In this document: positions 26,145 through 63,199 of the stretch, piece after piece | Position numbering within the stretch: position 1 is the first letter of the stretch | How the letters are laid out: the number at the start of each line of letters is the position of its first letter | Assembly (NCBI RefSeq): GCF_023554255.2 | Contig: NZ_JAMJWD020000001.1 | Span: 124,001 to 188,000 of the forward strand | Length of the DNA stretch: 64,000 nt | Source: Phyllobacterium sp. 21LDTY02-6 | GTDB taxonomy: Bacteria > Pseudomonadota > Alphaproteobacteria > Rhizobiales > Rhizobiaceae | Direction: 5' to 3' | The notes under the pieces: model-generated | The model's input: only the letters and a program-made list of their open reading frames with translations | The model's database searches: none | Told to the model about the DNA's origin: nothing | Program-made: the position numbers and the translations under genes

Positions 26145-26270
26145 CGTTCACGGATTCTAGGTGATTTTGCCGTCACCGTTCAATGAATAAAAATTTTGGT
26201 CCAGCCCCATATTTGTCATTGATTGGACACAAGTTTCCACTTATATCGCGCTTGCCCAAAGTCGCACGTG
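26145..26270. promoter_or_regulatory. Divergent promoter region amidase / ornithine decarboxylase
   Basis: This AT-rich stretch separates the amidase start from the structured leader of the decarboxylase gene and must hold the promoters of both. I could not define exact -35/-10 elements. Confidence 0.4.
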
Positions 26271-26640
26271 CCTGTGGGTGTCCGCCGATCCTCATGATGG
26301 TGAGGAAACGGTATGGTACCTGGAACTAACCCCTCCAGTCAGTTTGACGGCCTACCGCCAAGCTGAGGACATCTTGAAGCAACGACGGTGCGGGCCTTTC
26401 TGGTGTCTTTCGGCTGTCCAAAAGCCGGAATTACTGAAGAGGCACACCTTCATTGCCGGTAGTGCGGATGGGTTCATCCAAGCCAAGGCAGACAAAGCGG
26501 ATTTACGCTGCTTGCAGCGTGGTCCATCGCCGCATGATCCTTCGCGTGTTTCCAGTATCTCCAAAGGCTGGCTCCACGAGGGACGGATTCTTGCACTTTG
26601 TCCTTCGGCAGCTCGGGCGTTCCCGTGATTGCCGTACATG
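26271..26640 (+). ncRNA. speF-type leader RNA of ornithine decarboxylase
   Basis: A ~370-base leader upstream of a type III ornithine decarboxylase, the position of the alphaproteobacterial speF motif (a cis-regulatory RNA described upstream of such genes). Visible stems: TCCTCA/TGAGGA at 26289-26306, a CGGCTxxxxxAGCCGG-like stem near 26411-26428 and CGCTG-CTTG-CAGCG near 26506-26519. An open frame (GTG 26278 to 26628) runs through the leader, so part could instead be coding. Identity is based on recall of position and general pattern, not on an alignment. Confidence 0.6.
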
Positions 26641-60494: not shown

Positions 60495-60559
60495 TCGTCT
60501 TGCGTAAATGCCATGTCGTTTCCGCACCTATCCTTTTACCTTGCCTAGTGCTCATATGG

Positions 60560-60745
60560 AGCTGCTTGAGGTGCCGCTTCTAGGGGAGCGGAGAATTGGG
60601 AAGCCGGTCTGAACCCGGCGCTGCCCCCGCAACGGTGGTGGAGTAAAACGCGGCAAAAGAGCCACTGGGGAATTCCCGGGAAGGCGTCGCGGCGTCCTGC
60701 GAGGGAGCTCCAGAGCCCGGAAACCAGCCCCAGGCCATAAACCGA
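60560..60745 (+). ncRNA. Cobalamin riboswitch
   Basis: A clear adenosylcobalamin riboswitch on the plus strand. Conserved parts in order: AGGTGCCGCTT..., GAATTGGGAAGCCGGT, the core GCTGCCCCCGCAACGG (60621-60635), GAGCCACTGGGG (60660-60670), GGGAAGGCG and the B12 box AGCCCGGAAACCAGCC (60714-60729; consensus AGCCAGGAGACCTGCC). It lies on the same strand and directly upstream of the Rieske oxygenase gene (ATG 60858), not of a cobalamin synthesis or transport gene. High B12 should lower expression of the downstream gene. Confidence 0.93.
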
Positions 60746-60747
60746 CT

Positions 60748-60770
60748 GATCGCGGTGGGCGATCAAGGAG
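60748..60770 (+). promoter_or_regulatory. Hairpin plus Shine-Dalgarno after the riboswitch
   Basis: GATCGC-GGTGG-GCGATC (60748-60764) followed immediately by AAGGAG (60765-60770). The hairpin could be the expression platform that exposes or hides this ribosome site, in front of a short frame that overlaps the Rieske gene start. Confidence 0.45.
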
Positions 60771-60771
60771 T

Positions 60772-60882
60772 ATGATAATGCCCGGTATGCCCGTGCAGGC
60801 ATCTTCTCCATCACCACCAGTCAGTTCTTTCGCAATATTGGCAGGCGAGGACACGACATGGATATTCAAGCGGAACTCCTGA
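60772..60882 (+). CDS. Possible 36-codon leader ORF overlapping oxygenase start
   Basis: ATG 60772 (or 60778, which is 7 bases from AAGGAG) opens a frame of about 36 residues (MIMPGMPVQASSPS...) ending at 60882, out of frame with and overlapping the oxygenase start. A short coupled leader peptide is possible, controlled by the riboswitch hairpin. It is too short to judge coding potential. Confidence 0.3.
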   Translation: MIMPGMPVQASSPSPPVSSFAILAGEDTTWIFKRNS

Positions 60883-62099
60883 GAAGCCTCAGGCAGCGCA
60901 AACAGGGCTACGGGCTGGAGCAGCCCTTCTATTCCGATCCGGATTATTTCCGGCTGGACATGGAGACGATCTTCTACCGCGACTGGCTGTTCGTGGGCCA
61001 TGATTGCGAGGTGGCGCGCCCCGGCAACTACTTCACCGTGCAGGTCGGCGACTATCCCATCGTCATCGTGCGCGACCGGGAGAAGAACATTCGGGCATTC
61101 CACAATTCCTGCCGCCATCGCGGTTCGCGCATTTGCGCGGGCGAGCGCGGAAGCTCGGCCAAGCTCGTATGCCCCTACCATCAATGGACCTATGAACTCG
61201 ACGGCCGGCTGCTGTTCGCGCGGCAGATGGGCGATGATTTCGATGCGAGCCAGTTCAGCCTGAAGCCGGTGCATTGCGAGAGCGTCGGCGGATATGTCTT
61301 CATCTGCCTTGCCCAGGTGGCGCCGGATTTTGCGCCTGCACGCGCGCTGCTAGAGCCGTATCTGGCCCCGCACCGCCTGACGGAAACGAAGATCGCCTAT
61401 CAGAGCACGATTGTCGAGAAGGGCAATTGGAAGCTGGTATGGGAGAACAACCGCGAGTGCTATCACTGCGCAGGCAACCATCCTGAATTGTGCAAGACGT
61501 TCCCCGAAGCGCCGAGCGCAACCGGCATTCAGGGATCGAAGAGCGATCCGGAGATCGTCGCCCACTGGGACAAGTGCGAATCCGAGGGCCTGCCGAGCAT
61601 ATTCCGCATTTCCGACAATGGCCAATACCGCGCAACGCGGGTGCCGCTGCTGGGCGAGGCGGAAAGCTATACGCTGTCGGGCAGGCGCGCCGTCGGCCGC
61701 CAGTTGAGCGACGATGTCAATGCGCGCCGGATCGGCTCGCTGCTGCTCTATCATTATCCCGGTACCTGGAACCACATTCTCGCCGATCATGCCATCTCGT
61801 TCCGGGTATTGCCGCTCGGTCCGAACGAGACGCAGGTGACGACGAAGTGGCTGGTGCACAAGGATGCGGTCGAAGGCGTCGATTATACGATCGACGAGCT
61901 CACCCATGTCTGGCTCGAGACCAACGACCAGGATCGCAGGATCGTCGAGGAGAATGCATTCGGCATTCGCTCGCCTGCCTACGAGCCGGGACCCTATTCG
62001 CCCGAGCATGAGGGTGGCGTCCTGCAATTCCTCGAATGGTACGGCAACATGATGGAAAGCCGTCTCGGCGGCGACGCGAAGCTCAGCAGGGTGGCATGA
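60858..62099 (+). CDS. gbcA: Rieske non-heme oxygenase, glycine betaine demethylase type
   Basis: A 413-residue alpha subunit resembling GbcA, which demethylates glycine betaine to dimethylglycine and formaldehyde. Rieske ligands CRHRGS...CPYHQW (about residues 86-110), mononuclear iron motif ENNRECYHCAGNHPELC and a later Asp in ETNDQDRRIVEEN. Related stachydrine or carnitine demethylases are alternatives. GCGAGG ribosome site; the stop overlaps the reductase start by 4 bases. Upstream lies a cobalamin riboswitch, so expression should rise when B12 is scarce. Confidence 0.85.
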   Translation: MDIQAELLRSLRQRKQGYGLEQPFYSDPDYFRLDMETIFYRDWLFVGHDCEVARPGNYFTVQVGDYPIVIVRDREKNIRAFHNSCRHRGSRICAGERGSSAKLVCPYHQWTYELDGRLLFARQMGDDFDASQFSLKPVHCESVGGYVFICLAQVAPDFAPARALLEPYLAPHRLTETKIAYQSTIVEKGNWKLVWENNRECYHCAGNHPELCKTFPEAPSATGIQGSKSDPEIVAHWDKCESEGLPSIFRISDNGQYRATRVPLLGEAESYTLSGRRAVGRQLSDDVNARRIGSLLLYHYPGTWNHILADHAISFRVLPLGPNETQVTTKWLVHKDAVEGVDYTIDELTHVWLETNDQDRRIVEENAFGIRSPAYEPGPYSPEHEGGVLQFLEWYGNMMESRLGGDAKLSRVA

Positions 62100-63199
62100 T
62101 GAACATGGGCGTTCCCCAGGGCCACGGTTACAAACATCTCGACCAGATGCAGCCGTGGAGCGACAGGCTGCACCTCCTGGAGTGCCTGTCGGTCGTCGAG
62201 GAAGCGCCCAACGTCAAGACCTTCACCTTTCGCTCCGACAATCAGAACTGGTTCCGGTATGAGCCGGGCCAGTTCATGACCTTCGAACTCGGGACGCAGC
62301 CCGAATCCATCCTGCGGACCTTCACGCTTTCGTCCAGCCCCTCGCGTCCGTTCACGTTCGCCGTGACGGTGAAGGCGCAGGAGGGAAGCATCGGCGCCCG
62401 GTGGATGCTGGACAACCTCCTGCCGGGAATGCGGCTGAAGGCTTTCGGGCCGCTGGGGGATTTTTCGATCGCCAGGTATCCGGGCGACAAATATCTCTTC
62501 ATCTCCGCGGGCTCGGGTGTCACCCCCATGATGTCCATGACGCGGTGGCTGCAGGATTGCGCGCCGCAGAGCGATGTCAGCTTCGTTGCCTGCGCGCGCC
62601 GCCCGAGCGATATAATCTTCCGGCGAGAACTGGAATATCTGACGAGCTCAATGCCCAATCTGAAAGTATCGTTCCTGATCAAGGAACATGAGATGGGGCA
62701 ATTATGGACGGGGATCAGAGGCCGCCTCGAGGCTCCGAAACTCCCGCTGCTGGCCCCTGATTTCAAGGATCGCGTCATCTTCTGCTGCGGGCCCGAGGGC
62801 TTCATGCGCGATGTGCGGGAAATGCTCGAAGCCTCCGGCTTCGACATGGCGCACTACCACCAGGAGAGCTTCGGGCCCGCCGCGGAGCCGGTGTTGCCGC
62901 TCATGGACGATCTGGAACCCGGGGAGCAGCCGGCTGCGACATCCATGGTGACGTTTTCCATGTCCGGCAAGGAAGTGCCTTGCGCCGCCGGCGAAACGAT
63001 CCTCAAGGCCGCGCGCGGGGCCGGTATCCGTATTGCCGCGGCCTGTGAATCCGGCCTCTGCGGCACCTGCAGGATCCTGAAGCTCTCCGGCGAGGTCGCG
63101 ATGGATCACAATGGCGGTATCCTCGATGAGGAAATCGAGGAAGGCTACATTCTCGCCTGTTGTTCCAAGCCGCTCGGCAACGTCGAAGTCGAAGCCTGA
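62096..63199 (+). CDS. gbcB: Ferredoxin-NAD(P) reductase component, GbcB type
   Basis: A 367-residue reductase that passes electrons from NAD(P)H to the oxygenase. FAD domain (RTFTLSSSPSRPFTFAVTVK), NAD domain (FISAGSGVTPMMSM, CCGPEGFM) and a C-terminal plant-type [2Fe-2S] domain (AACESGLCGTCRI ... ILACCSKP). Domain order FAD-NAD-2Fe2S and the ATGA overlap with the oxygenase fit GbcB. ATG 62099 is an alternative start. Confidence 0.88.
   Translation: MMNMGVPQGHGYKHLDQMQPWSDRLHLLECLSVVEEAPNVKTFTFRSDNQNWFRYEPGQFMTFELGTQPESILRTFTLSSSPSRPFTFAVTVKAQEGSIGARWMLDNLLPGMRLKAFGPLGDFSIARYPGDKYLFISAGSGVTPMMSMTRWLQDCAPQSDVSFVACARRPSDIIFRRELEYLTSSMPNLKVSFLIKEHEMGQLWTGIRGRLEAPKLPLLAPDFKDRVIFCCGPEGFMRDVREMLEASGFDMAHYHQESFGPAAEPVLPLMDDLEPGEQPAATSMVTFSMSGKEVPCAAGETILKAARGAGIRIAAACESGLCGTCRILKLSGEVAMDHNGGILDEEIEEGYILACCSKPLGNVEVEA

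Follow-up and report, generated by a model that had tools for sequence, protein, structure and literature searches.

A cobalamin riboswitch ahead of GbcA/Stc2-type Rieske demethylase operons follows MttB-family corrinoid demethylases in Rhizobiaceae

Introduction

Why should a cobalamin riboswitch stand in front of an operon encoding a Rieske-type demethylase? The question is raised by a locus of Phyllobacterium sp. 21LDTY02-6 (contig NZ_JAMJWD020000001.1), where a riboswitch of Rfam family RF00174 precedes gbcA- and gbcB-type genes; the whole stretch of 64,000 nucleotides that was analysed is referred to here as the window. The original prediction, made from the DNA letters, had explained the arrangement as a tie between B12 status and glycine betaine catabolism, either through glycine supply to corrin synthesis or through the sparing of methyl-group pathways. 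It had also listed B12-independent isozymes among the normal targets of this riboswitch class, a possibility that it did not apply to gbcAB. Our comparative analysis argues for the latter: the riboswitch likely controls a B12-independent isozyme of a B12-dependent demethylase, which would carry the metE/metH rule over to betaine demethylation.

Distribution of the riboswitch and of MttB-family genes

The family sample comprised 297 genomes, of which 126 had a gbcA match at E 1e-140 and 120 of these a close orthologue (64–100% identity). The recurrence of the riboswitch–gbcA pair, which had been proposed for survey, was confirmed: the riboswitch was located upstream of the orthologue in 85 of the 120 genomes, 84 of them recognized by pattern matching and one (L148), missed by the pattern, recovered with the covariance model and Rfam. 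Within the genus, it preceded gbcA in 20 of 20 loci according to Rfam (19 genomes and the Phyllobacterium myrsinacearum locus, possibly one of the 19), and the pair was also found on pSymB of Sinorhizobium meliloti USDA1021 (100.3 bits, 72% identity). No riboswitch was found before eight paralogue loci of 53–56% identity.

The placement of the riboswitch follows the presence of MttB-family corrinoid demethylases. Among the 120 genomes, riboswitch and MttB occurred together in 81 and were both missing in 33, with the riboswitch alone in four and MttB alone in two; MttB was thus present in 81 of 85 riboswitch carriers versus 2 of 35 non-carriers, the partner-enzyme pattern of the metE rule (Fisher p 1.4e-25, calculated on the counts before L148 was added, with six odd-type genomes left out and relatedness ignored). 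In a set of named genomes that overlaps with the 120, MttB was detected in all 26 tested carriers and absent in 21 of 22 non-carriers (Ciceribacter lividus being the exception), while 30 further named carriers stood outside the MttB comparison; L071, from the genus with degenerate riboswitches considered below, had no MttB. All 19 genomes of the genus contained both elements, and the seven genomes outside the order in which the pair was detected carried two to seven MttB genes each.

When relatedness was considered, the tree of the 120 proteins implied approximately 10 changes in the riboswitch and nine in MttB. Eight independent pairs separated by supported branches differed in the riboswitch, of which six to seven agreed in MttB and none opposed it (median p 0.0156, range 0.0156–0.0312). 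From the MttB side, seven independent pairs were available, mostly with six to seven agreeing and none opposing (median p 0.031, range 0.0156–0.0625). Because the riboswitch follows the presence of MttB, gbcAB looks like a B12-independent isozyme.

As a control, cobN and metH were recorded in 62 of the 120 genomes, namely all 35 without the gbcA riboswitch and 27 carriers. All 62 retained at least one cobalamin riboswitch, and the 35 lacking it before gbcA had one to six elsewhere. The 33 genomes with neither riboswitch nor MttB contained cobN in 24 cases and metH in 33, the 27 carriers cobN in 27 and metH in 24, and the two MttB-only genomes cobN in both and metH in none. Therefore, neither B12 synthesis nor MetH accounts for the distribution of the riboswitch.

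To look beyond the order, a class-wide sample of 385 genomes was scanned for the B12 box of the gbcA-linked riboswitches. The box was present at 15 sites, nine of which had a riboswitch core; the remaining six had none and were taken as chance matches. Eight of the nine cores preceded a GbcA homologue, corresponding to the window itself and seven loci outside the order, with 47–66% identity and from five families, and these riboswitch-linked homologues do not all belong to a single branch of the Rieske tree. The ninth core, at locus L302 of genome G685, precedes fdhA, whose product scores 711 bits as a glutathione-independent formaldehyde dehydrogenase against a cut-off of 637. A second cobalamin riboswitch (135 bits), divergently oriented, adjoins this core and precedes a homocysteine-methyltransferase gene.

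A probable B12-dependent counterpart in the Phyllobacterium genome

Aerobic bacteria are reported to demethylate glycine betaine through the cobalamin-dependent MtgBCD system, in which MtgB belongs to PF06253, and the mtg genes of S. meliloti are described as lying among cobalamin genes (excerpts of PMC12478193, 2025). The genome from which the window was taken has two PF06253 genes near MtgC-, MtgD- and MtgE-like genes, in a cluster that also includes a dimethylglycine- or sarcosine-dehydrogenase-like gene and an OpuAC-type binding protein. Approximately 7–18 kb from this cluster, a cobyric-acid-synthase-like open reading frame (named by eye) and another cobalamin riboswitch are located. Since the genome has a B12-dependent system, the Rieske operon would be the B12-independent alternative. 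The mtg cluster additionally contains a fatty acid desaturase gene (PF00487; L119:11778-12827 (+), C1); PMC2211319 (excerpt) reports a desaturase gene as the target of a cobalamin riboswitch.

The gbcA–gbcB operon and the identity of the enzyme

The best NCBIfam match of the oxygenase was the glycine betaine monooxygenase oxygenase subunit GbcA (NF058607), at 517.9 bits against a curated cut-off of 670, and the reductase reached 383.9 bits against a cut-off of 500 for GbcB (NF058606). On the same GbcA model, Stc2 of S. meliloti scored 498.5 bits and one distant riboswitch-linked homologue 654.7 bits, while the best matches in the PDB were 3n0q (553.6 bits) followed by Stc2 (3vca, 531.9 bits). 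The Rieske CxH...CxxH motif and residues H203, H208, D357 and D359 were conserved in all 120 aligned orthologues; together with a reductase bearing FAD, NAD and 2Fe-2S domains, these iron ligands place the pair among the two-component Rieske quaternary-amine demethylases. The oxygenase was filed as GbcA/Stc2-type and not as GbcA because its score lies under the GbcA cut-off and Stc2 is about equally close. Judged by these comparisons it is a quaternary-amine demethylase of that type, for which glycine betaine, stachydrine or another compound may be the substrate; the operon assignment of the original prediction was thus retained, and its designation as a glycine betaine demethylase was not.

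The nearest named relative of gbcA was found in P. myrsinacearum (83% identity). The start codon of gbcB overlaps the stop codon of gbcA as ATGA, an overlap that would probably extend any translational control of gbcA to gbcB. In the riboswitch-less orthologous loci of Paracoccus ferrooxidans and Agrobacterium 1D1609 (stretch fetched), the gene order is gbcA-gbcB-fdhA, followed in Paracoccus ferrooxidans by a BCCT transporter gene, an order that fits betaine oxidation with release of formaldehyde. The flanking genes of the operon in the window look unrelated: an IclR regulator, two enolase-superfamily enzymes and an SDR are encoded upstream, and a sugar-binding protein downstream. Apart from gbcA and gbcB, the open reading frame clusters recurring around 80 named loci, judged by eye, gave no pointer to the substrate. 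A second, distant Rieske paralogue is encoded elsewhere in the same genome (L006, C1:954758-955957; 279 bits on the GbcA model).

The riboswitch leader and the proposed mechanism

The original prediction of a complete cobalamin riboswitch about 110 bases ahead of the oxygenase and reductase genes, on the same strand, proved accurate. The match of 107.2 bits (gathering score 31.5, E 7.4e-26) covers the entire model and was the only cobalamin riboswitch above the gathering score in an Rfam scan of the whole window, and 111 bases separate the end of the aptamer from the start codon of gbcA. Assignment to RF00174 is further consistent with the complementarity of the L5 and L13 loops, whose tertiary contact is predicted, and with the P13 hairpin. 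As to a signal that might separate the riboswitch from gbcA, no terminator-like site was seen on the plus strand in a scan between the aptamer and gbcA; a single weak promoter-like match (9/12, 0.4 expected by chance) was observed at 60838-60866, spanning the gbcA start codon. The aptamer stretch of the window showed no excess stability in plain folding (z 0.97). The coordinates of the features are listed in Table 1.

Table 1. Features of the riboswitch leader and operon in the window, and of the fdhA-linked locus L302
Feature	Position	Strand	Basis or remark
Cobalamin riboswitch aptamer (RF00174)	60552..60746	+	cmscan 107.2 bits over the whole model (1-189)
L5 segment GCCCCCGC of the predicted kissing loop	60623..60630	+	Sequence; complementarity to L13 judged by eye
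B12 box, gbcA subtype, AGCCCGGAAACCAGCC	60714..60729	+	Sequence comparison
J6/3 junction, AAA instead of AGA	60721..60723	+	Unpaired in the Rfam structure line
P13 hairpin	60747..60765	+	L13 loop core GCGGTGGGC at 60752-60760, complementary to L5
Alternative long hairpin excluding P13	60744..60826	+	Pairs 60744-60750/60820-60826 and 60754-60758/60814-60818; minimum-energy fold
gbcA/stc2-type Rieske oxygenase gene, 413 aa	60858..62099	+	NF058607 517.9 bits; Rieske and ring-hydroxylating domains
gbcB-type reductase gene, 367 aa	62096..63199	+	NF058606 383.9 bits; FAD, NAD and 2Fe-2S domains
L302 (G685) fdhA locus	10-1200; 1484-1683; 1924-2147	-; -; +	gbcA-type riboswitch before fdhA, divergent neighbour riboswitch

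Across the leaders, the L13 loop GCGGYGGGC was present in 78 of 84, and 76 of these had a P13 stem of at least five pairs, the sequence of which varied. In the window, the alternative hairpin folded at -36.8 kcal/mol versus -31.6 kcal/mol with P13 forced, the energy of the kissing contact not being counted, and its 3' motif (CCACC..CAGT) was found in 36 of 80 leaders examined. The folding of the Shine-Dalgarno site was evaluated in 80 of the 84 leaders (two without a loop match and two without a site were left out): when P13 was forced, the mean pairing of the site rose from 0.88 to 0.99 where the CCACC..CAGT motif was present (36 leaders) and from 0.73 to 0.79 where it was absent (44 leaders), and a change above 0.1 was upward in 21 of 80 leaders and downward in two of 80. 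A start codon at 60779, after AAGGAG, opens a short reading frame overlapping the gbcA start in another frame; this frame, compared by eye, was not kept in the named leaders, and the candidate leader peptide was set aside as incidental.

According to excerpts of PMC2211319 and PMC545781, cobalamin represses the B12-independent isozyme where both isozymes occur. Following this logic, the aptamer would bind cobalamin when it is ample, and the L5-L13 kissing loop would lock P13, holding off gbcA and, by ATGA coupling, gbcB; betaines would then be demethylated by the corrinoid-dependent MtgB/MtgC, with the methyl group passing to folate. When cobalamin is short, release of the mRNA would let the Rieske enzyme, which depends on oxygen and NADH, take over, and formaldehyde would be given off. 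We infer ligand binding, the OFF direction (by analogy with the riboswitch class), the translational mode and the substrate.

Elsewhere in the window, the Rfam scan located the alphaproteobacterial small RNA ar45 at 26254-26399 (+), directly followed by a speF leader at 26408-26550 (+).

Evaluation of alternative explanations

Several observations weigh against isozyme control. The independent evolutionary events are few, and the absence of MttB was called at E 1e-150 in the 120 genomes (1e-30 for the named genomes). The riboswitch occurs without MttB in four genomes of one genus; these riboswitches score 56–61 bits in Rfam, the two that were aligned are devoid of the GCCACTG strand, and all four look partly degenerate, as after decay. 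Conversely, no riboswitch was found in the stretch searched in two genomes of one genus, G193 (L179) and G264 (L173), which have gbcA and MttB and are also without MetH, or in Ciceribacter lividus (L067), likewise with gbcA and MttB. The effect of P13 on Shine-Dalgarno sequestration is modest in silico and suggestive only. Finally, the Rieske and MttB enzymes need not share a substrate and may not be isofunctional. The degenerate genus (g118, the Rhizobium sp. Leaf371 group; L071, L184, L193, L195 and L199), with the riboswitch before gbcA and MttB absent, also has a metH match with one in-frame stop in three of four genomes and a partial one in the fourth.

The Rieske (GbcA/Stc2) and MttB families each hold several betaine specificities, and the two systems might be related without being isofunctional, each taking different betaines or serving formaldehyde, oxygen or methyl-group balance, with neither replacing the other. 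In agreement with this, Stc2 and the GbcA models are at similar distances from the enzyme, and genomes carry one to eight MttB copies of several score classes. Against it, the link extends to homologues from different branches of the Rieske family, and the riboswitch-less orthologues of Paracoccus and Agrobacterium adjoin fdhA, one of them near the BCCT transporter; we consider the explanation unlikely. Shared ancestry without function, with riboswitch and MttB inherited and lost together by chance in some lineages, would suit the fact that several riboswitch-less groups are whole genera (g41, g42, g54, g105, g120), which leaves the 120 rows far from independent. Both characters change repeatedly on the tree without any independent pair running the other way, and the seven genomes outside the order agree, which makes this explanation quite improbable.

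The explanation by glycine supply offered in the original prediction, in which betaine would yield glycine for 5-aminolevulinate and corrin synthesis at low B12, has the riboswitch acting in the right sense, and a review (PMC8123684, excerpt) describes stimulation of industrial B12 production by betaine and choline. Yet such a role predicts a riboswitch that follows B12 synthesis, and the riboswitch-less, MttB-less gbcA genomes mostly keep cobN (24 of 33) and always metH (33 of 33); no glycine-pathway gene was seen, by eye, to recur around the 80 named loci, and a link to MttB is not predicted by it; it appears very improbable indeed. The sparing of methyl groups is not the best fit either, as the riboswitch follows MttB instead. 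What stands of the earlier proposal is a tie between B12 status and betaine-type catabolism, which is plausible for reasons other than the metabolic ones then given; control of a B12-independent isozyme remains our preferred explanation.

A distinct aptamer subtype

As judged from sequence, the gbcA-linked aptamers form a distinct subtype of cobalamin riboswitch, also outside the order. All 84 pattern-called gbcA-linked elements have the core AACGGT, versus ACTGT in 43 of 43 others, and CAG in the box is replaced by CCG; both CTG/CAG and CGG/CCG are complementary, according to our own pairing, from which the Rfam structure line differs somewhat. The J6/3 triplet is AAA in 78 of the 84 and ACA in six (four of these from the degenerate genus), compared to AGA in all 43 comparison riboswitches; the A or C in place of G is also seen outside the order. 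The comparison set was composed of the 40 top-ranked matches listed, and is so biased to canonical elements, plus three from the genome of the window; metE riboswitches fall outside it.

Methyl- and hydroxocobalamin are the forms used by methyl-transfer corrinoid proteins, and J6/3 is said (Johnson 2012, Polaski 2017) to lie near the upper face of cobalamin and to set the preference for adenosyl- versus methylcobalamin. Few binding-site residues can switch such selectivity, as stated in an excerpt of PMC9600662. We tentatively suggest that the gbcA-linked aptamers could be a specificity variant, perhaps for methyl- or hydroxocobalamin over adenosylcobalamin, that would report on the methyl-transfer corrinoid pool, whose failure would call for the Rieske enzyme, and might govern a small regulon including fdhA in some genomes. 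In any event, they offer a natural set with a conserved J6/3 change for studies of cobalamin selectivity.

Comparison with known systems

We rate the riboswitch class and the isozyme logic as known, and the target pair and the distinct aptamer subtype as new. The 2003 B12-element surveys (Rodionov, Vitreschak et al.) reportedly included an 'ardX-frdX' pair, a ring-hydroxylating dioxygenase and a ferredoxin; our literature search for these names returned a single paper, which uses frdX in another sense. Should the surveys indeed have such an entry, the linkage may already have been noticed there and left unexplained. A full-text search of open-licence papers found no report linking a cobalamin riboswitch to a betaine or Rieske demethylase, and the excerpts of PMC12478193 make no mention of riboswitch control of gbcAB. 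For S. meliloti 1021, three chromosomal cobalamin riboswitches are tabled (PMC2573895, excerpt), while the pair found here sits on pSymB.

If our proposal is true, the B12-independent isozymes silenced by B12 riboswitches would include a catabolic one, and in soil and plant-associated alphaproteobacteria B12 status would decide whether betaines are demethylated by the folate-linked route or by the oxygen-using one, which releases formaldehyde. The proposal lends itself to direct testing in a model organism, since S. meliloti, in which the routes of betaine demethylation are described as unsettled so far (PMC12478193, excerpt), has the pair on pSymB in strain USDA1021.

The closest parallel is the metE riboswitch, listed for example for Mesorhizobium loti in an excerpt of PMC5948670. 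It belongs to the same class and would follow the same logic if the model holds, the B12-independent isozyme being repressed when the B12-dependent one works. In contrast to metE, the Rieske demethylase targeted in our case is catabolic and depends on oxygen, its partner is an MttB/MtgC corrinoid system, and J6/3 differs from that of the 43 comparison riboswitches, among which metE elements are not represented. On the enzyme side, GbcAB of Pseudomonas and Chromohalobacter and Stc2 of S. meliloti share the two-component Rieske family, the domains and the iron-site residues with the operon of the window; unlike GbcA itself, the window oxygenase falls under the curated cut-off and has Stc2 about equally near, while Stc2 and the 56% paralogues, which are without riboswitch, form a separate supported group in the tree. 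Finally, the gene types of MtgBCD (PF06253, MtgC-, MtgD- and MtgE-like) are clustered in the genome of the window, where this system would be the B12-dependent counterpart of the riboswitch-linked operon.

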